Assembly (NCBI GenBank): GCA_016870395.1
Contig: VGBT01000026.1
Coordinates: 1 to 35,466 of the forward strand
Length of the DNA stretch: 35,466 nucleotides
DNA from: Actinomycetota bacterium
Lineage (GTDB): Bacteria; Actinomycetota; Acidimicrobiia; IMCC26256; JAENVU01
Reading direction: 5' to 3'
Below are positions 620 to 9,628 of the stretch, piece after piece (position 1 is the stretch's first letter; each line of letters starts with the position of its first letter). Both the position numbers and the translations under genes were made by a program. The notes under the pieces are model-generated. The model had not been told where the DNA came from. It saw only the letters and a list, made by a program, of their open reading frames with translations, and made no database searches.

Positions 620-1657
620 ATGAGTCGAGACGCGCGTCGGCCGGTACGCGGCGCGATGTTGCTGTTCGTGCTGGGCCTCGGCGCGCTCGTGGCCGGCCTG
701 GGTGCTCCGACGGGCCGGGCCTCGGGCTCAGACGCGGAACAGGCGCGGTCCCTGCTCGAACGCGCGCGTTCTGCCGCCCTGCGCTACGACTTCGACGCCG
801 TCATCGTGATGACCTGGCAGGACGGCGCGAGGTCGAGGACCCGACGCGTCGAGGCCAGCGCCCGAGCCGGCGTGCTCCGTCTCGGTGACGGCGAGGTGCT
901 CGGCGACGCCGACCAGCGGGTGGTCGGCAGCGACGACGGCTGGCACGTGCTCTGGGAGGGGAAGGTCGCGCACGGCGGCGTCGACCCGGCACGCAAGTAC
1001 CTGCTTCGCGTTCGGGAGGACGTCGACTGGGACGGCCGCGCCGCGACCCGTGTGATCGCCGTGCGCCGCGGGCACGGGAATCCGGTCCGCGAGCGCCTCA
1101 CGTTCGACGACGAGACCGGATTGCTCCTGCGGCGGGTGCAGTTCGACGACGACGAGGAGGTCTGGCGCGACATGCAGGTGATGCTCGCGTCGGTTCCCGT
1201 CGCGAGCACGACGCCGCACTCGACCGACCTGCCGGGCCGCGAGCCTCGCGGTCACGCGGTGCTGTCCGTCGCCGACGTCGGCGTCGACGCGCCGCGCCGC
1301 TTGGGCGACGGCTTCGAGCTCACGGGGGCCTATCGGCGCGGCAGCGACGGCATGCAGTGGTACTACAGCGACGGCCTCCACGGGATCTCGGTGTTCGAGC
1401 GCGACGGCGATCTCGCGTGGGACGAGCTCCCCGAAGGCGGCCGCGACGTCGCGATGGCCGGTACAGACGCGCACCTCTATACGAACGCCGCGGGCACCGG
1501 TGTCGTCTGGGCTTCCGACGGCCGGGTCTATACGCTGGTCAGCGAGATCCCATCGCTCGAGGTGGCGGGCGTGATCGCGGATCTCGCGGACGGGGACGAG
1601 CCGGGGATGCTGGAGGAGGTCACGCGGTTCGTAACCGCTCCGTTCAGCTGGAGCTAG
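620..1657 (+). CDS. RseB/MucB-like exported sigma-regulatory protein
   Basis: This 345-residue protein starts with an Arg-rich n-region and a hydrophobic segment (about residues 12-30), so it is exported or anchored. The body alternates short beta strands, with a FDDETGLLLRR segment followed by VQFDDDEEVWRDM, the kind of sequence seen in the LolA-like N-domain of MucB/RseB proteins. RseB proteins bind the anti-sigma outside the membrane and block its proteolysis. ATG 620 was chosen because it directly precedes the signal sequence; the frame is open further upstream, overlapping the anti-sigma gene. It converges on whiB with a 4-bp overlap of the 3' ends. A general outer-surface lipid-binding role is the main alternative. 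Confidence 0.68.
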   Translation: MSRDARRPVRGAMLLFVLGLGALVAGLGAPTGRASGSDAEQARSLLERARSAALRYDFDAVIVMTWQDGARSRTRRVEASARAGVLRLGDGEVLGDADQRVVGSDDGWHVLWEGKVAHGGVDPARKYLLRVREDVDWDGRAATRVIAVRRGHGNPVRERLTFDDETGLLLRRVQFDDDEEVWRDMQVMLASVPVASTTPHSTDLPGREPRGHAVLSVADVGVDAPRRLGDGFELTGAYRRGSDGMQWYYSDGLHGISVFERDGDLAWDELPEGGRDVAMAGTDAHLYTNAAGTGVVWASDGRVYTLVSEIPSLEVAGVIADLADGDEPGMLEEVTRFVTAPFSWS

Positions 1658-1926
1658 CCACTCACCGTGCCGACGCGACGGCTGCGCAAGATGCGGCGTC
1701 GCTCGCGCTCGGAGGCACCGCCCCACACTCCATGCTCGATGCGGTAGCGCAGCGCGTACTCGAGGCAGTCGACCTGCACCGGGCAGGTGGCGCAGACCTT
1801 GCGGGCCTGCTCGACGCCGACGCCGTCGGACGGGAAGAAGAACGACGGGTCCCGGTCACGACACAGGCCGTCGAGCATCCAGGTGTGTTCGGCGTCGTAC
1901 TCTGGGAGCGGGTAGTCGTCCATCAT
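1654..1926 (-). CDS. WhiB-family Fe-S transcriptional regulator
   Basis: The 90-residue protein has the full WhiB signature: Cys22, then Cys45-x2-Cys48-x5-Cys54 to hold a [4Fe-4S] cluster, and the GVWGG turn at 66-70 followed by a basic ERERRRILRSRR tail for DNA. WhiB proteins act with the principal sigma factor and sense redox or nitric oxide. The subgroup (WhiB1, WhiB2 or other) cannot be fixed. Two in-frame ATGs occur at the start; the first was used. A GGAAC-N17-CGTT element ends eight bases before the ATG, so the transcript would be leaderless and probably controlled by an ECF sigma. Confidence 0.95.
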   Translation of the reverse strand: MMDDYPLPEYDAEHTWMLDGLCRDRDPSFFFPSDGVGVEQARKVCATCPVQVDCLEYALRYRIEHGVWGGASERERRRILRSRRVGTVSG

Positions 1927-1934
1927 GGTGATTC

Positions 1935-1960
1935 AACGGTCCAGCCTGCTCGATGGTTCC
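1935..1960 (-). promoter_or_regulatory. Candidate ECF sigma promoter of whiB
   Basis: Read on the minus strand, GGAAC (1960-1956) and CGTT (1938-1935) are separated by 17 bases. This matches SigE-type ECF promoters (-35 GGAAC, -10 CGTT, 16-17 base spacer). The ATG lies eight bases after CGTT, fitting a leaderless start. Confidence 0.6.
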
Positions 1961-1990
1961 TGTGCGGCATGGCTCGTGGGTCACACTTCC

Positions 1991-2009
1991 CTCAGGGCTG
2001 TCTCAGGTG
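1991..2009 (+). promoter_or_regulatory. Direct repeat, possible OmpR/MprA-type operator
   Basis: Two 8-bp subunits, CTCAGGGC (1991-1998) and CTCAGGTG (2002-2009), are repeated in the same orientation with an 11-bp period and a three-base spacer. OmpR-family regulators bind such repeats, and mycobacterial MprA boxes are described as two loosely conserved 8-bp direct repeats. The position just upstream of the htrA -35 fits an activator. No MprA gene is in the window. Confidence 0.35.
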
Positions 2010-2014
2010 CCCGT

Positions 2015-2040
2015 GGAACGCTGGAAGCGGAGGATTCGTT
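2015..2040 (+). promoter_or_regulatory. Candidate ECF sigma promoter before or inside the htrA start
   Basis: GGAAC (2015-2019) and CGTT (2037-2040) are separated by 17 bases, exactly like the divergent whiB element. A start site about seven bases after CGTT would fall just past the ATG at 2043. If this promoter is used, translation probably begins at GTG 2142 instead. Confidence 0.5.
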
Positions 2041-2042
2041 CA

Positions 2043-3476
2043 ATGACGACTGACCTGCCGGAGGAGGCGCAGGTGCCCCAGGTCGACGACATCGTAGGCG
2101 CCGGGCACCGGAGCCGACCATTTCACGAAGCAGAGGGTCCCGTGAGCGACGCTCCCACCGTCATCGAGCCCAAGATCGAGCCCGCCGGCATCGACGCGGC
2201 ATCAGTAGCGGCCACCGATACGGCGCCGGCCGAGCGCCTCGAGGTCGTTCTCGACGGACCGCCGCCCTGGCCCGCGTCGACGCCCGACGGCGGGCGGGGT
2301 GTGCCGCCGGCGCCGAGTGACCGGGCTCCTTCGGGCTCGCGGCCCGGTGCATGGAAGCTGGTGTTCGTGAGCGCGCTGGTCGGCGCGCTGGTGGGTGGGG
2401 CCACGGCGAGTGGGGTGTTCCTCGCCACGAACGACGACGAACCGGGGAGCCGCACGGCACCGGGGAGCGCCACGGTGGTCGGACGTCCGTCCGATGCCGA
2501 CTCGGGCCCGCCGCGCAACACGTCGGTGATCGGCGAGCCGCAGGACATCCGGGGGATCCTTGCCAAGGTCGAGCCGGCCGTGGTCGCGGTCCGTACGGGC
2601 GCGGCGACGAGCGACGCGACAGCGGCCGACGGCGCCGATGGAGGCGCGGGCACGGGGTTTGTGATCTCGTCCGACGGTGTGATCGTGACGAACAACCACG
2701 TCATCGAGGGATCCGGCGGTCAGATCGAGGTCGCGTTCGGCGACGGCACCAGCCTCGACGCCGAGGTGCTCGGCGGGTCCGCCGACAACGACCTCGCGGT
2801 GCTGAAGGTCGACGGGAAGAACCTCCCGGTCGCGCAGCTCGGCAGCTCCGATTCCCTTGCCGTCGGTGACGAGGTCGTCGCGATCGGCAACGCGCTCGCG
2901 CTCGACGGCGGGCTCAGCGTCACTCGCGGGATCATCTCGGCGAAGGGACGCACGGTGCCGGAGGCCGAGACGGGGGCGACGCTCTTCAACGTCTTGCAGA
3001 CCGACGCGGCGATCAACCAAGGCAACTCGGGTGGCCCGTTGGTGAACTCGGCCGGCGAGGTGGTGGGGATCAACACCGCGCTTGCCGGTGGGAGCCAGAA
3101 CGTCGGGTTCGCTATCAGCATCGACTCCGCGAAGCAGGTGATCGACGACCTCCGTCAGGGCAAGGAGGTGCGCATCGCGTTCCTGGGCGTCGAGTCCCGG
3201 GAGGTCACGCCGGCGCTGGCCCGCGAGCTCGATCTCCTCACGAAGCGGGGTGCGCTGATCCGGAGGACCACCGAGGACTCGGGAGCCGAGGCGGCCGGGC
3301 TCGAGGCGAACGACGTGATCGTGGCGATCGACGGGCGGGAGGTCGCCCGTCCTGACGACGTCGCGGCGTCGATCCGGCGCTACCAGCCCGGGGACCAGAT
3401 CGAGGTCACGGTCGAGCGAGCCGGCGAGCAGAAGACCTTCACGGTGAAGCTGGGAGTGCGGCCTGACGACCGGTGA
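2043..3476 (+). CDS. htrA: HtrA/DegP-type serine protease with PDZ domain
   Basis: The 477-residue protein has a Pro-rich cytoplasmic N-terminus, a membrane helix at about 105-127, a trypsin-like domain with His219 (TNNHV), Asp250 (DNDLAVLKV) and Ser329 (GNSGGPLV), and a C-terminal PDZ domain (about 378-470). It should degrade or refold misfolded exported proteins. Placement after the sigma/anti-sigma/RseB-like set recalls mucABD and the mycobacterial sigE-rseA-htrA locus. ATG 2043 has a GGAGGA ribosome site nine bases upstream. GTG 2142, after AGAGGG, is an alternative that fits the ECF promoter better. The catalytic domain is intact, unlike the paralogue at 26240-27433. Confidence 0.95.
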   Translation: MTTDLPEEAQVPQVDDIVGAGHRSRPFHEAEGPVSDAPTVIEPKIEPAGIDAASVAATDTAPAERLEVVLDGPPPWPASTPDGGRGVPPAPSDRAPSGSRPGAWKLVFVSALVGALVGGATASGVFLATNDDEPGSRTAPGSATVVGRPSDADSGPPRNTSVIGEPQDIRGILAKVEPAVVAVRTGAATSDATAADGADGGAGTGFVISSDGVIVTNNHVIEGSGGQIEVAFGDGTSLDAEVLGGSADNDLAVLKVDGKNLPVAQLGSSDSLAVGDEVVAIGNALALDGGLSVTRGIISAKGRTVPEAETGATLFNVLQTDAAINQGNSGGPLVNSAGEVVGINTALAGGSQNVGFAISIDSAKQVIDDLRQGKEVRIAFLGVESREVTPALARELDLLTKRGALIRRTTEDSGAEAAGLEANDVIVAIDGREVARPDDVAASIRRYQPGDQIEVTVERAGEQKTFTVKLGVRPDDR

Positions 3477-3543
3477 GGCCGGGTGAGCGCCGGCTGACGC
3501 GGGGCGCGGCACGCGCCGATGCGGGGCTCGGGGTCGGGCGCAG

Positions 3544-3549
3544 TACGCT
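3544..3549 (+). promoter_or_regulatory. -10-like hexamer TACGCT
   Basis: TACGCT lies 34 bases before the ATG of the 91-residue gene at 3584, leaving room for a short leader containing the GGGGGAG ribosome site. No convincing -35 is visible. Confidence 0.35.
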
Positions 3550-3583
3550 GCGTTCGGCCCTGAACCGTCTTGGGGGAGTGTTG

Positions 3584-3859
3584 ATGGCCGTCCAACCCGA
3601 AGAGCTCGAGCAGCTGCCGCCGGTGGGCCACGTGCGCGTGGTCTACCTCGGTCCTGTGTCTCCCCACTGGGAGGTGCAGGGGGTTTTCGGCGATCGGCAG
3701 CTCATCGACGAGTTCCGTGAGCGGGCGATGGCGCGCCTGCAGCTGCTGCCGCCGCACGACCCACAGTTCCGCCGCAACCGGGAGCGAGTGGTGCGCGACG
3801 CGGAGCGCGAGAACCTCATCCTCGAGTGGGACCTCGGCCACGACGAGGAAGAGGCGTAG
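3584..3859 (+). CDS. Hypothetical protein, 91 residues
   Basis: I do not recognise a family. The ATG at 3584 follows a strong GGGGGAG ribosome site (3572-3578). The protein has no signal or membrane segment. It has a hydrophobic strand-like stretch (VRVVYLGPV), then a charged helical half rich in Arg and Glu (FRERAMARLQ, NRERVVRDAERE), and an acidic C-terminus. It looks like a small soluble alpha/beta protein. It converges on phoU with an eight-base gap. Codon use matches its neighbours, so it is probably a real gene. Confidence 0.7.
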   Translation: MAVQPEELEQLPPVGHVRVVYLGPVSPHWEVQGVFGDRQLIDEFRERAMARLQLLPPHDPQFRRNRERVVRDAERENLILEWDLGHDEEEA

Positions 3860-3867
3860 GCGTCGCC

Positions 3868-4542
3868 CTACTCCTCGGCGCCGGGGTGGGTGCCGGTGAC
3901 CATCCACTGGACGCGCTCGGCGATCGTCACCGCGTGGTCGGCGATCCGCTCGTAGTGCCGGGCCACCAGCGCGACCTGCACGGCCTGGAGGACGGTGCCC
4001 TCGTCCGACGCCCCCCAGGCCAGGATGTGGCGGAACAGGCTCTTGGTGAGCTCGTCCATCGAGTCGTCCATGTCCTGGAGGGCGGCGGCCCAGTTCGGGT
4101 CGGAGTCGGCGAAGGCGTCGATGGCGAGGCGGGTCTGGTTCGAGGCCTGGATGCCCATGCGGTCGATGATCCCGCGCACCTTCGGGTCGAGCTCATGGGG
4201 GTAGATGCGTCTCGTCGTCTTCGCGACGTTCACCATCAGGTCGGCATCGCGTTCGAGCTCGTGGTTGATCCGCATCATGGTGATCACGGCGCGCAGGTCG
4301 GCCGCGACCGGTGACTGCGTAGCGAGCACGAGGAGCAACCGGTCCTCGACGTGGTGGTAGAGCTCGTCGATCTTGTCGTCGCCCTCCACCACCGCCTCGG
4401 CCACGGCGAGGTCGCCGTCGAGGAAGGCCTGGGTGCCGCCGGCGATTGCCTCGGTGCTCAGCGCGGCCAGCCGGATGATGTCGTTGCGGATCTCGCCCAG
4501 CTCGTCCTCGAGTGGGCGACGGGCGGCAGGTACTGCTTCCAT
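3868..4542 (-). CDS. phoU: Phosphate-signalling regulator PhoU
   Basis: This 224-residue all-helical protein has the two PhoU repeats. Each carries the metal-binding motif: INHELERDADLMVN in the first half and ARHYERIADHAVTIAE in the second. PhoU links the Pst transporter to the histidine kinase and silences the Pho response when phosphate is plentiful. The ATG at 4542 has a GAGGAG ribosome site six bases upstream; the frame stays open for another 47 codons without further PhoU similarity. It is divergent from pstS, and 11-bp GTTCAC repeats lie upstream on its own strand. Confidence 0.96.
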   Translation of the reverse strand: MEAVPAARRPLEDELGEIRNDIIRLAALSTEAIAGGTQAFLDGDLAVAEAVVEGDDKIDELYHHVEDRLLLVLATQSPVAADLRAVITMMRINHELERDADLMVNVAKTTRRIYPHELDPKVRGIIDRMGIQASNQTRLAIDAFADSDPNWAAALQDMDDSMDELTKSLFRHILAWGASDEGTVLQAVQVALVARHYERIADHAVTIAERVQWMVTGTHPGAEE

Positions 4543-4610
4543 GGGCTCCTCGGGTGAGGTCGGGTTCCCATCATGTTCGCGCCGCCGGCGGTGCCGGCGT
4601 GGCCCGGCAG

Positions 4611-4638
4611 GTGGCGCACAGGTGAACGAGCAGTGAAC
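4611..4638 (-). promoter_or_regulatory. PHO box-like direct repeats facing phoU
   Basis: On the minus strand GTTCAC occurs at 4638-4633 and 4627-4622, exactly 11 bp apart. A weaker third unit (CGCCAC, 4616-4611) keeps the same phase. The unit matches the GTTCACC repeats bound by actinobacterial PhoP/RegX3. A -10-like CATGAT lies further on at 4576-4571 of that strand. Confidence 0.65.
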
Positions 4639-4691
4639 AGGTTCGGCAGATCCCCGCGCGCCTCTGCCTGGAAGCGCAATCATCGGCCGGC

Positions 4692-4708
4692 GTTCACCTC
4701 TGGTTCAT
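4692..4708 (+). promoter_or_regulatory. PHO box-like direct repeats facing pstS
   Basis: GTTCAC (4692-4697, continuing as GTTCACC) and GTTCAT (4703-4708) are direct repeats with an 11-bp period, 75 bp before the pstS start. This is the arrangement bound by PhoP/RegX3-type regulators, and such a regulator is the last gene of this cluster. Confidence 0.7.
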
Positions 4709-4782
4709 CACGTGGATTCCGACCGTCAAGGCAGCAGCCGTACCGTGACCCGGGTCATCGAGCCCGCTAGGAGGTCACCAGG

Positions 4783-5775
4783 ATGATGTGCACTCGTACG
4801 TTGCGTCGCACGGCAGCGGCAGCCGTGCTGCTGGTGCTCGTCGCAGCGGCATGCAGCGAGGACAAGAGCGTCTCGGGCAACGGGGACGGAGGTGGGTCGA
4901 AGCTCTCGGGCTCGATCAGCGTCGACGGGTCGTCGACGGTCGCTGCGCTCACCTCGGCCGCAGCCGAGCTGTTCCAACAGGACAATCCCGACGTCCAGAT
5001 CACGGTCGGCACGTCGGGCACCGGCGGCGGGTTCAAGAAGTTCTGCGCCGGCGAGACCGACATGGCCGACGCGTCCCGTCCGATCAAGGACGACGACGAG
5101 GGCGAGGCACCCGCCTGCGAGGCGAACGGGATCGAGTACGAGGAGATCGAGGTCGCGAACGACGGCATCGCGCTCGTCACCAACAAGGAGAACACCTGGG
5201 CCGAGTGCCTGACCGTCGAGCAGCTCAACAAGATCTGGGCGCCCGACTCGACCGTCTCCAACTGGAACCAGGTCGACCCGTCGTTCCCCGACCAGAAGCT
5301 CACGCTCTTCGGCGCGGGTACGTCGTCGGGCACTTTCGACTTCTTCACCGACCAAATCAACGGCGAAGAGGGTGCGAGCCGGTCCGACTACAACGCGACC
5401 GAGGACGACAACGTCACGGTGCAGGGCGTCGAGGGTGACAAGGGCGCGCTGGGCTACTTCGGCCTCTCGTACTACGAGAAGAACCAGGACAAGCTCAACG
5501 TGGTCGAGGTCGACGACGGCGAGGGGTGCGTGAAGCCGTCGACCGACACGGTCCAGGACGGCAGCTACGCACCGCTCTCCCGCCCGCTGTTCATCTACCC
5601 GAGCAGCGCGCTCGTGGTCCGCCCCGAGGGCGTCGGCTTCGTGACGTTCTACATCGAGAACTCCGACGAGATCGCCAAGAAGTCCCTGTTCGTGCCGCTG
5701 ACGGCGGAGCAGCGCCAGACCTCGCTCGACGAAGTCCGCGCGCTGGCCGGCGCGGGCACCACGTCCTCGACGTAG
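4783..5775 (+). CDS. pstS: Phosphate-binding lipoprotein PstS
   Basis: The 330-residue protein starts with an Arg-containing signal peptide ending at a lipobox-like AAAC, so Cys24 is the likely lipidated residue. The mature part has PstS phosphate-loop segments: SGSISVDGSSTVAAL near the N-terminus, GTSGTGGGFKKFCAGE, and GAGTSSGTFDFF. It captures phosphate outside the membrane and passes it to PstCA. A strong AGGAGG ribosome site precedes two adjacent ATGs. PHO-box repeats lie upstream, so phosphate limitation should induce it. A perfect stem-loop follows the gene. Confidence 0.96.
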   Translation: MMCTRTLRRTAAAAVLLVLVAAACSEDKSVSGNGDGGGSKLSGSISVDGSSTVAALTSAAAELFQQDNPDVQITVGTSGTGGGFKKFCAGETDMADASRPIKDDDEGEAPACEANGIEYEEIEVANDGIALVTNKENTWAECLTVEQLNKIWAPDSTVSNWNQVDPSFPDQKLTLFGAGTSSGTFDFFTDQINGEEGASRSDYNATEDDNVTVQGVEGDKGALGYFGLSYYEKNQDKLNVVEVDDGEGCVKPSTDTVQDGSYAPLSRPLFIYPSSALVVRPEGVGFVTFYIENSDEIAKKSLFVPLTAEQRQTSLDEVRALAGAGTTSST

Positions 5776-5782
5776 GGCTGCG

Positions 5783-6742
5783 TTGATCACCGGCTCATCG
5801 ACCGCACTGCAGATCCCCGGGTCGCTCACGAGCGACCCGGGGATCCTGCGCGGGCGGCCGCGTCACGGTGAGCGTGTGGTGATCGGGATCCTCTTCCTCT
5901 GCGCGGCGCTTTCGGTGGTGGTCACTATCGGCATCGTCCTGTCGCTGATCCCGCCGACGGTGGAGTTCTTCCAGGAGGTCGACCTCGGCGAGTTCCTCAC
6001 GGGTACCGAGTGGGCCCCGCTGTTCACGCCGCCGAAGTTCGGCGTCCTTCCGATCGTCGCCGGCACGCTGGTCGTCACCGTGTGCGCGATCGCGATTGCA
6101 CTGCCGTTCGGGCTCGGGACCGCGGTGTTCCTCAGCGAGTACGCCCGGCCCCGCATCCGCAAGTGGCTCAAGCCCATGATCGAGGTGCTCGCCGGGATCC
6201 CCACCGTCGTGTACGGGTACTTCGCCCTGAAGTTCGTGAGCCCCTACGTGCAGGACCTGTGGCCGATCGGCGACCCGCCCGGCGTGTTCAACGCGCTCTC
6301 GGCCGGGCTGGTGATGGGCATCATGATCCTCCCAATGGTCGCGTCGCTCTCCGAGGACGCGTTGGCCGCGGTGCCCGCAGGGCTGCGCGAGGGCGCATAC
6401 GCGCTCGGGAGCTCGAAGTTCGAGGTGGCCAGCCGGGTCAGTGTTCCTGCGGCGCTCTCGGGGATCGTCGCGGCGTTCGTGCTTGCCGTGTCCCGCGCGG
6501 TGGGAGAGACGATGATCGTGCTCATCGCCGCGGGGGGCACCCCCAACCTCACCTGGAACCCCGGTGAGGCCATGCAGACGATGACCGCGTTCATCGCCGC
6601 GGCCGGTACGGGCGACCTGTCGCAAGGCAGCACCGGCTACCAGACGATCTTCGCGGTCGGGTCGCTCCTCTTTGTCGTGACGTTTTTCATGAACGTGTTC
6701 AGCAACCGGGTCGTGCGCCGCTTCCGGGAGGTGTACGAGTGA
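5783..6742 (+). CDS. pstC: Phosphate ABC transporter permease PstC
   Basis: The protein has about 319 residues with six predicted membrane helices and the ABC permease loop LPMVASLSEDALAAVPAGLREGAYALG. It forms the phosphate channel with PstA. The start is uncertain: TTG 5783 (seven bases after pstS) keeps the RHGERVV segment that normally precedes the first helix, whereas GTG 5876 would remove it. A 15-bp perfect hairpin lies over codons 10-21 if TTG is used. The 3' end overlaps pstA by four bases (GTGA). Confidence 0.94.
   Translation: MITGSSTALQIPGSLTSDPGILRGRPRHGERVVIGILFLCAALSVVVTIGIVLSLIPPTVEFFQEVDLGEFLTGTEWAPLFTPPKFGVLPIVAGTLVVTVCAIAIALPFGLGTAVFLSEYARPRIRKWLKPMIEVLAGIPTVVYGYFALKFVSPYVQDLWPIGDPPGVFNALSAGLVMGIMILPMVASLSEDALAAVPAGLREGAYALGSSKFEVASRVSVPAALSGIVAAFVLAVSRAVGETMIVLIAAGGTPNLTWNPGEAMQTMTAFIAAAGTGDLSQGSTGYQTIFAVGSLLFVVTFFMNVFSNRVVRRFREVYE
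5812..5845 (+). other. Perfect 15-bp stem-loop at the pstS-pstC junction
   Basis: GATCCCCGGGTCGCT (5812-5826) pairs perfectly with 5831-5845 around a CACG loop. No T-run follows, so a classic intrinsic terminator is unlikely. Such a structure could stabilise the pstS messenger or limit pstC expression, giving excess binding protein over permease. Confidence 0.75.
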
Positions 6743-7638
6743 GCCTGCTCGAGGCTGACGCCGCTGCCGTCACCCCGCTGCCGCGCCAGTCCACCGGCAA
6801 GCGGCTGGCCGACCGCGCGTTCTGGGTGGTGCTCTTCGTGAGCTTCGGCGTCGCGGTCGTCGGACTGGTGGCGCTGCTCTGGTACGTGTTCGACACGGGT
6901 TGGCCGGCCTTCGGTGGCCGCCTCTGGCGCAGGTTCCCGTCGCTCGATCCCGAGATCGCCGGCGCGCGCTCGGCGGTGTTCGGCACGATCTGGGTGCTCG
7001 GCATCACCGCGGCGCTCGCGGTGCCGATCGGCATCGGCGCCGCCGTGTACCTCGAGGAGTTCGCGTCGCACGACCGCTGGTACACGCGCTGGATCGCGCT
7101 CAACATCCAGAACCTCGCCGGGGTGCCGTCGATCGTCTACGGCATCCTCGGGCTCGCGTTCATCGCCCGCGGACCCCTCGGCCTCGGGCCGACCGTGTTG
7201 ACCGGAGGGATGATCCTGGCGCTGCTCGTCCTGCCCATCGTCATCATCGCCTCGCGCGAAGCCATCCGAGCGGTGCCACCCTCGATCCGCGACGGCTCGC
7301 TCGCGTTGGGCGCGACCCGGCTCCAGACGGTGCGGCGCCAGTTGCTCCCGGCCGCCATCCCCGGGATCGCGACCGGCGTGATCCTGGCCCTGTCACGGGC
7401 CATCGGCGAGGCGGCGCCGCTGATCATGATCGGCGCCTTCACCTACGTGCCGTTCAACCCGACCAGACTGGACAGCAAGTTCACGGTCCTGCCGATCCAG
7501 ATCTTCGACTGGATCGGCCGGCCCCAAGAGGGCTTCACCCAGCTGGCGGCCGCCGCGTGCATCCTCCTGCTGATCATCCTGCTCTTCATGAACGCCCTGG
7601 CGATCTGGCTGCGCAACCGGTACCAACAAAGATGGTGA
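6739..7638 (+). CDS. pstA: Phosphate ABC transporter permease PstA
   Basis: The 299-residue protein has six predicted membrane helices, the first at about 30-52. It carries the permease loop with the [20 protein letters not shown] consensus, and [10 protein letters not shown] in the region typical of PstA. It pairs with PstC in the membrane. The GTG start overlaps the pstC stop by four bases and the 3' end overlaps the pstB start, so the three genes are translationally coupled. Confidence 0.95.
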
Positions 7639-8534
7639 GCATGGAGTCCCCCGACCTGGGCCACGGCGACCCTGTCCGTTCGGCACCGCCCGCGGACATC
7701 GTGTTGACTCGCGAGATGCAGGCGGAGTCCGTTCCGGGGGCGCCGGAGCCCGACACGCGCCAGGTCGTGTTCGACATCCGCGGGCTCGATGTCCACTACG
7801 GACCGGTGCTCGCGGTCGCCGAAGTGGACCTCGCGGTGGCCGCGAGGGAGATCACCGCGCTGATCGGGCCGTCGGGCTGCGGCAAGAGCACCTTTCTGCG
7901 TTGCCTCAACCGCATGAACGACCTCATCCCGGGTGCGCGGGTGAGCGGGTCGGTGCTGTACCACGGGCTCGAGCTCTACGGGCCCCAGATCGATCCCGTC
8001 GAGGTGCGCCGCCGGATCGGCATGGTGTTCCAGAAGCCGAACCCGTTCCCCAAGTCGATCTACGACAACGTCGCGTTCGGACCGCGGGTCAACGGTCAGC
8101 GCAGGGGTCTCGACGACCTGGTCGAGCACGCGCTCGCGCGTGCCGCGCTGTGGGACGAGGTGAAGGACAAGCTCAAGAAGAGCGCGCTCGCGCTCTCCGG
8201 CGGCCAGCAGCAGCGACTCTGCATCGCCCGTGCGCTCGCGGTCGAACCCGACGTGGTGCTGATGGACGAGCCGTGCTCCGCGCTCGACCCGATCGCGAGT
8301 TCGCGCATCGAGGACCTGATGGTAGAGCTCAAGCGCGACTACACGATCGTCATCGTCACCCACAACATGCAGCAGGCCGCCCGCGTGTCGGACCGCACCG
8401 CCTTCTTCACGGCCGAGATCCGCGAGAGCGGCGCGCGGGTCGGCGTACTGGTGGAGTACGACCAGACCGAGACGATCTTCACGTCTCCGTCCGATCCGCG
8501 CACGGAGGGGTACATCACCGGACGGTTCGGATGA
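7632..8534 (+). CDS. pstB: Phosphate ABC transporter ATPase PstB
   Basis: The 300-residue ATPase has Walker A GPSGCGKS (79-86), a Q-loop in FQKPNPFP, signature LSGGQQQR, Walker B VVLMDEP, and the H-loop VTHNMQQA. The segments [13 protein letters not shown] and [18 protein letters not shown] are diagnostic of PstB. About 42 residues precede the usual family start, so ATG 7632 (overlapping pstA), GTG 7635 and ATG 7641 are all possible. It powers phosphate import. The stop overlaps the next ATG by four bases. Confidence 0.96.
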
Positions 8535-9628
8535 GCAGCACCCGGCGCGCGCCGGTCGATCGTCACAAGGCGAGCGCCGAGCAGCTCGCCGCACAGTGCG
8601 ATCAGCTCGCCCAGGCGTTGGAGGCAGTGCCCGATGCGGTCGTGATCGTCGACCTCGAGGGCAACGAGGTGTTGCGCAACGGACCGGCGCAGCGCTTCGC
8701 GGACGGGCGCCATGGCGCCGCGCTTGTTGCGGATGCCATCCGCACGCTGCTCGAAGACGCGCGTCGCGGGCTCACCGGCGAGCGGGAGCTCCAGCTCTTC
8801 GGCCCGCCTCGGGAAGTCCTGCACCTGCGCGCGCAGCCGCTGGTAGCGCACGGGATGATCAACGGTGGTGTCGTGTTCGCGCGCGACGTCACCGAGGCGC
8901 GGCGCACCGAGAGCGTGCGGCGTGACTTCGTCGCCAACGTGAGCCACGAGCTCAAGACGCCGATCGGCGCGCTCGCGCTGCTCGCCGAGACGATGGCGGC
9001 GGGTGGCGACGAGGTGATGCTGCGCCAGATGGCCGAGCGGATGGCCCGGGAGGCCGAGCGGCTCGGACGCATCGTCGACGACTTGCTCGACCTCAGCCAC
9101 ATCGAGGCCCAGGAAGCGCCGACGCGCGAGCCCGTGCCGGTCGCGGTGCTCACGAGCGAGGCGATCGAGCGGGTCCGTCCGGCGGCAGCCGCGGCGGAGA
9201 TCCCGCTGGAGACGACCGAGATCGAGGGTGAGCTCGTGGTCGACTGTGATCGCACGCAAGTCGTGAGCGCGCTTACGAACCTGCTCGACAACGCGATCAA
9301 GTACTCGGAGCAGGGTCGGCCGGTCGAGGTCGGCGCGTACGCCGCGTCGGATCTCGCCACGATCGAGGTGCGCGACCACGGCATCGGGATCCCGTCACGC
9401 GATCTGGAGCGGATCTTCGAACGGTTCTACCGGGTCGATCGGGCCCGCAGCCGCGCCACCGGTGGCACCGGTCTGGGCCTTTCCATCGTGCGACACGTGG
9501 CGCAGGCCCATGGGGGCGACGTGATGGTGGAGTCCCGTGAGGGCGAGGGATCGGTGTTCAGGCTGCGGCTGCCGGGGGCCAACGCCCGTGGCCGACCGCT
9601 CGCTGCGTCGCCCGAGGAAGCAACCTGA
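8531..9628 (+). CDS. Soluble PAS-containing sensor histidine kinase, SenX3/PhoR-like
   Basis: The 365-residue protein has a short helical N-terminus, a PAS-like domain (about 28-122, [20 protein letters not shown]), a HisKA domain with phospho-acceptor His139 (NVSHELKTP), and an HATPase domain (N-box [11 protein letters not shown]1 DHGIGIP, G2 GGTGLGLSI). SenX3 and PhoR normally have N-terminal membrane helices, but none is visible here. The ATG overlaps the pstB stop (ATGA), so no longer N-terminus is likely. It probably phosphorylates the regulator encoded next in response to Pst/PhoU state. Confidence 0.93.

Follow-up and report, generated by a model that had tools for sequence, protein, structure and literature searches.

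Divergent SigE-type promoter elements between whiB and htrA and a predicted envelope-stress regulon in an order of Acidimicrobiia

The window, i.e., the whole stretch of 35,466 nucleotides analyzed here, represents the complete contig C26 of a draft genome of 2.98 Mb (G000). It starts with the end of a SigE-like ECF sigma factor gene on the plus strand (positions 1–138). The preliminary description had placed an ECF sigma gene beside the promoter elements; this gene is present, but the contig edge leaves only its C-terminal 45 codons, while its N-terminal part forms the end of contig C88. A TatA/E-like gene was seen beside the sigma gene on that contig. Next on the plus strand an RseA-like anti-sigma factor is encoded (136–579). 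One hydrophobic segment was recognized by eye in this protein, and the HxxxCxxC motif was absent from it and from 12 of the 13 homologues inspected. The third gene (620–1657, plus strand) is convergent with whiB, and the two overlap by 4 bp at their 3' ends. Using a profile of 9 homologues, its product was related to P. aeruginosa MucB (6in8, E-value of 1.2e-10) and to E. coli RseB (E-value of 0.011). At the Pfam cut-offs for MucB/RseB the window protein gave no match, and three homologues scored 12.8–15.0 bits, below the cut-off. For the predicted fold (mean pLDDT of 71) the 15 best Foldseek matches were all MucB/RseB, with E-values from 4e-12 to 7e-9 and query TM scores of only 0.37–0.47. 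We call the protein MucB/RseB-like.

The whiB-like gene (1654–1926, minus strand) encodes 90 amino acids and reached 82.5 bits against PF02467 at a cut-off of 23.6. The WhiB family is described in the accessible text of PMC6282962 as found in Actinobacteria only. Named relatives retrieved with the window WhiB were mostly Acidimicrobiia records. Two records titled “Bifidobacterium breve” (L070, CAMBEL010000010.1; L081, CAMDSG010000136.1) have an Acidimicrobiia-like whiB neighbourhood and look mislabelled. Divergent from whiB lies a gene for an HtrA-like protease (2142–3476, plus strand, with the preferred short start GTG 2142 and the alternatives GTG 2073 and ATG 2043). The interval between both genes carries one ECF-type promoter element on either strand and, on the plus strand, an 11-bp direct repeat CTCAG-N6-CTCAG (1991–2006), a probable response-regulator site. 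Scanning positions 1600–2200 yielded neither a sigma-70 promoter nor a terminator. According to the assignments of the neighbouring genes, the locus is a predicted sigma/anti-sigma/RseB-like/HtrA set with whiB inside.

Further downstream, a small conserved gene is located 3' of htrA (3473–3859; protein beginning MAVQPEELEQLPPVGHVRVVYLGP). In G011 and G042 no htrA was detected next to whiB, and a similar gene takes the position directly divergent from whiB there. In the window, phosphate genes follow (3868–9628), recognized by eye as phoU-, pst-, and phoR-like; repeats of the GTTCACC type precede the pstS-like gene.

The two elements and their conservation

The pattern GGAAC-N17-CGTT precedes whiB on the minus strand (1935–1960, reading GGAACCATCGAGCAGGCTGGACCGTT; -35 at 1960–1956, -10 at 1938–1935) and htrA on the plus strand (2015–2040, reading GGAACGCTGGAAGCGGAGGATTCGTT; -35 at 2015–2019, -10 at 2037–2040). 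Identical spacing at both genes, as first described, was thus verified. The elements had also been called facing; they are divergent, each directed away from the other. Both show the GGAAC -35 and CGTT -10 of the SigE-type consensus, a motif common to several actinobacterial ECF sigma factors. The window pattern is identical to the C. glutamicum sigma-H/sigma-E consensus GGAAC-N17-18-cGTT, as given in the accessible text of PMC10012870.

These were the only two matches in the window. In 400 dinucleotide shuffles of it a mean of 0.195 matches was obtained, and none of the shuffles contained a divergent pair within 150 bp. The proposed scan of the genome for the same element was carried out and gave 19 exact N17 matches versus 5 for a reversed control pattern. 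A simple ORF heuristic placed most of the 19 in predicted coding sequence, and the genome-wide pattern was rejected as evidence by itself. Since the bare pattern is not rare genome-wide, position and conservation carry the weight.

For conservation, WhiB was searched in 58 genomes of the order, and 52 whiB loci from 50 genomes were examined. Throughout, conservation counts ignore the relatedness among these genomes. The exact element was found on the whiB strand within 260 nt at 40 of the 52 loci, covering 13 of 16 families, and at 43 loci when N16–19 was allowed. Counting all spacer lengths from 8 to 27, 43 pairings fell at N17, 3 at N18, and 1 each at 9 and 12; accordingly, 46 of 48 had the N17 or N18 of a SigE-type promoter. 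The reversed control pattern had no match on the whiB strand of the 52 loci. The element was absent from G026, G040, G050, G052, both G053 loci, G054, and both G055 loci, with one mismatch each in G050 and G052. Before htrA an element was present in 26 of 40 loci with htrA across the order (22 at N17, 4 at N18). Could both matches in the window be functionless products of chance? A pattern of 9 bases that occurs 19 times in one genome, mostly in predicted coding sequence, would allow for it; position, spacing, and conservation over 13 families make it extremely improbable. Both are very probably genuine control elements of an envelope-stress circuit.

The whiB ATG follows 9 nt after the CGTT, and the transcript should therefore have a short leader or none. 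C. glutamicum, too, has transcription starts located 0–1 nt from the start codon, according to the accessible text of PMC10012870. Outside the order, in the same class, 2 of 20 whiB orthologues read had the element, while htrA was adjacent in 9 of 20. An extension of the same control to WhiB proteins outside the order was therefore mostly rejected. A palindromic site of the type GGAACG-N15-CGTTCC was observed in the whiB-htrA interval of L128, L131, L061, and L062, where an ECF promoter is readable on both strands.

The sigma factor and further genes with the element

The sigma orthologue of G001, a sister species of G000 in the same genus like G002, had SigE (PRK09647) as best NCBIfam family. 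We name it SigE-like only, because its 208 bits stay under the equivalog cut-off of 265. Among solved structures it scored 169 bits with SigE (9m9d), 111 with a SigH/SigE chimera (6jcy), and 99 with SigH (5zx2). A clear score gap separated the SigE-like orthologues from a paralogue with 45–49% identity, which is present in most genomes including G000 (C7:15720-16226). All 16 genomes with a readable start of the sigma gene had the same element before it, with a spacer of 17 in 6 and of 18 in 10 genomes. In 15 of the 16 the start codon follows the CGTT by 4–8 nt. Inspection by eye showed no Shine-Dalgarno sequence before the gene, and the sigma mRNA is therefore probably leaderless. Searching ten further loci for the sigma gene start gave no sigma match.

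A further target may be rseP, with an exact element in 24 of 30 loci or, leaving out 3 loci that could not be evaluated due to contig ends or incomplete matches, in 24 of 27. In L138, a locus without the exact element, one -35 base differs. In G000 the element (C6:91222-91247; L005:1501-1526) lies 67 nt before rseP within the 3' end of the upstream gene, which we take to be dxr from its sequence and position. Because of this location in coding sequence the codon usage was checked: the Val codon under the -10 was GTT in 24 of 24 loci, which had been chosen for the motif, versus 99 of 927 other Val codons of the same upstream ORFs. That distant species share a fixed GTT at this position points to a constraint in addition to that on the protein. 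Other matches may be due to chance, i.e., an exact element at G000:C31:244-269, with an erpA-like iron-sulfur gene 74 nt downstream, and the pattern upstream of an ORF on C23 taken by eye for nadA. The proteins of L001 and L008, with the pattern near their starts, matched no NCBIfam family.

Next, the distribution of the whiB element was compared with that of the sigma factor. All 35 genomes with the SigE orthologue and an examined whiB locus had the whiB element, versus 8 of 15 without the orthologue (Fisher p-value of 6e-5, kinship ignored). These eight are G004, G008, G013, G015, G018, G031, G037, and G048; the remaining seven lack both, and four of the seven belong to one genus. On these counts, and with 2 of 20 outside the order, the whiB element tracks the sigma factor and the order rather than whiB itself. 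Real ECF promoters might still be read mainly by another ECF sigma factor, e.g., the SigH/SigR-like paralogue, with the neighbouring sigma factor as one of several users. This is conceivable, as all SigE promoters found in C. glutamicum are also recognized by SigH, within the accessible text of PMC10012870, the paralogue is widespread, and eight genomes keep the whiB element with no SigE orthologue found. In the whiB neighbourhoods of G013, G015, and G018 no sigma operon was detected either, and another ECF sigma factor may therefore serve some genomes. As the general explanation we regard it as the less likely one, given the co-occurrence just described and the element before the sigma gene itself; moreover, some of the SigE absences may be gaps of draft genomes (G004, G048).

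The htrA side: translation start and direct repeat

The preliminary description had deduced a shorter HtrA start at GTG 2142 from a transcript that would start just after the ATG at 2043. This argument is not decisive on its own, because the sigma genes too start only 4–8 nt after their CGTT. ATG 2043 lies 3 nt past the CGTT with GGAGGA in front, so that part of the htrA element doubles as its ribosome-binding site, and the corresponding MTT/MTA reading recurs in G001–G003. GTG 2073 has a strong Shine-Dalgarno sequence, and no counterpart of it was seen. The proposed start itself fared better. In 14 of the 26 loci with an htrA element the htrA frame is closed between element and gene, and translation there must begin downstream. 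In 19 of the 26, translation could begin with [VM][SNT][DE] 33–124 nt after the CGTT, and 17 of these 19 starts have a Shine-Dalgarno-like sequence; the counterpart in the window is GTG 2142 (V-S-D). Hence GTG 2142, as the better conserved form, is favoured as the start on a predicted stress transcript, while ATG 2043, with its own GGAGGA and recurring reading, would be possible for a longer transcript.

Between the repeat CTCAG-N6-CTCAG and the htrA -35 lie 8 bp. The exact form of the repeat has two copies only in the 2.98 Mb genome. The relaxed form [CT]TCAG-N6-[CT]TCAG was found in 22 of 52 whiB intervals, and also in G001, whose interval is cut short. In 14 of 15 loci with both repeat and htrA element the gap to the GGAAC measured 7–10 bp; in G043 it was 40 bp. 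In G003 (C209, L200) the repeat is found 38 nt ahead of a gene for an OmpR-type response regulator, and a kinase-like reading frame comes next. Of 30 loci, 8 had two repeats at precisely this distance of 38 nt from the start of the OmpR-type regulator; one of these sites was exact, five had a single mismatch, and two had two mismatches. In G009 the repeat precedes another htrA gene. The interval between whiB and htrA in IMCC26256 (G021) contains genes for a related regulator and kinase but no CTCAG site. The site was not recognizable before the regulator copy of G000 itself and was not found at the regulators L215–L217 and L221–L234, and the link to a single regulator is therefore partial. In NCBIfam the regulator gave only sub-threshold matches to many regulators; presumably it resembles MprA. 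For C. glutamicum, the accessible text of PMC12113857 describes MprA binding at the htrA and sigE promoters, with a motif (TKTTAAGAAM) unlike CTCAG-N6-CTCAG, so that the two are not the same site. The position of the repeat next to the htrA -35 suggests that a response regulator acts here.

Within the genus the htrA element is not constant. It was exact and correctly spaced in the window genome and in G003–G006 of the same family, and it was missing from the sister species G001 and G002, which have no CGTT at the site. The CTCAG repeat is retained in both sister species, and so are a strong Shine-Dalgarno sequence and the MTT/MTA start. Consequently, only the whiB element might work in this genus, with the htrA element as a relic or accident over the ribosome-binding site of ATG 2043 and htrA driven from the response-regulator site. 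We consider this rather unlikely in view of the intact element in the window and G003–G006, its presence in 26 of 40 loci across the order, and the almost fixed distance between repeat and htrA -35. The initial proposal that whiB and htrA are direct targets of the local sigma factor is thus supported, as the elements are conserved, the sigma gene and rseP are preceded by the same pattern, the whiB element occurs together with the sigma factor, and the sequence is identical to the SigE consensus. The proposal is firm for whiB and weaker for htrA in this genus due to G001 and G002.

The predicted envelope-stress circuit

From sequence, conservation, gene families, and co-occurrence we infer promoter activity, sigma dependence, a proteolytic cascade, WhiB as an output, and regulator binding. 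Both elements are likely promoters for RNA polymerase with the neighbouring SigE-like ECF sigma factor, in an autoregulated envelope-stress regulon with WhiB as one of its outputs. At rest, the membrane-anchored anti-sigma factor would hold the sigma factor, and the MucB/RseB-like protein would guard the anti-sigma factor. Envelope stress would lead to cleavage of the anti-sigma factor, partly by RseP. The freed sigma factor would then transcribe its own operon, rseP, and htrA and, in the opposite direction, whiB, and WhiB would pass the envelope signal to other genes. A response regulator on the CTCAG direct repeat would probably provide a second input at htrA. For this order of Acidimicrobiia, whose members are mostly uncultured, sigE, rseP, htrA, and whiB are thereby predicted as the core of an envelope-stress regulon. 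It joins components familiar from Proteobacteria (RseP and a relative of MucB/RseB) with actinobacterial ones (a SigE-like sigma factor, WhiB). With one WhiB named as likely direct target, the upstream signal of WhiB proteins becomes testable here.

Several known systems resemble parts of this arrangement. The SigE regulons of M. tuberculosis and C. glutamicum share the promoter consensus, sigma and anti-sigma factor in one operon, and the relation to envelope stress. The M. tuberculosis gene order is sigE-rseA-htrA-tatB, whereas here the MucB/RseB-like gene and whiB lie between anti-sigma factor and htrA, and the rseP element is located inside the upstream gene. The proteobacterial orders are rpoE-rseA-rseB and algU-mucA-mucB-mucD. 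These systems likewise comprise a sigma factor, a membrane anti-sigma factor, an RseB/MucB-like protein, an HtrA-type protease, and RseP, which here is part of the predicted regulon; in contrast to them, the sigma factor is closest to actinobacterial SigE and whiB belongs to the regulon. C. glutamicum, too, has a response regulator (MprA) at the htrA and sigE promoters, with the differing motif (PMC12113857, accessible text). The sigma gene of the order has its own element, whereas sigE autoregulation is rare in corynebacteria according to the accessible text of PMC10012870. An ECF sigma factor that controls an adjoining convergent whiB has a precedent in the C. glutamicum sigH-rshA operon with the SigH-controlled whiB-family gene whcE (whiB1), as far as described in the accessible texts of PMC3917460 and PMC3489674. 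That sigma factor responds to heat and oxidative stress, in contrast to the SigE-like sigma factor here, where htrA is divergent from whiB and a MucB/RseB-like gene is included. A search of the open-licence literature found no sigE-whiB-htrA regulon of Acidimicrobiia. What sets the order apart from these systems is the combination of a SigE-like sigma factor, a MucB/RseB-like protein, and the element at the sigma gene, rseP, htrA, and whiB, kept across one order.

A more speculative and on the whole improbable extension would make WhiB a dedicated partner of the envelope sigma factor. SigE would produce it from an almost leaderless transcript, and the Fe-S form of WhiB would bind region 4 of a sigma factor (SigA or SigE) and so link envelope damage with redox state throughout the order. 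Some members, such as G056 and G057, would use a single palindromic GGAACG-N15-CGTTCC as a two-way ECF promoter for whiB and htrA.

As a separate observation, a second whiB (L132, 2687–2977 of G000:C88) lies upstream of the sigma gene and is kept there in relatives; its product is closest to the WhiB class, with 107 bits to 8dy7.
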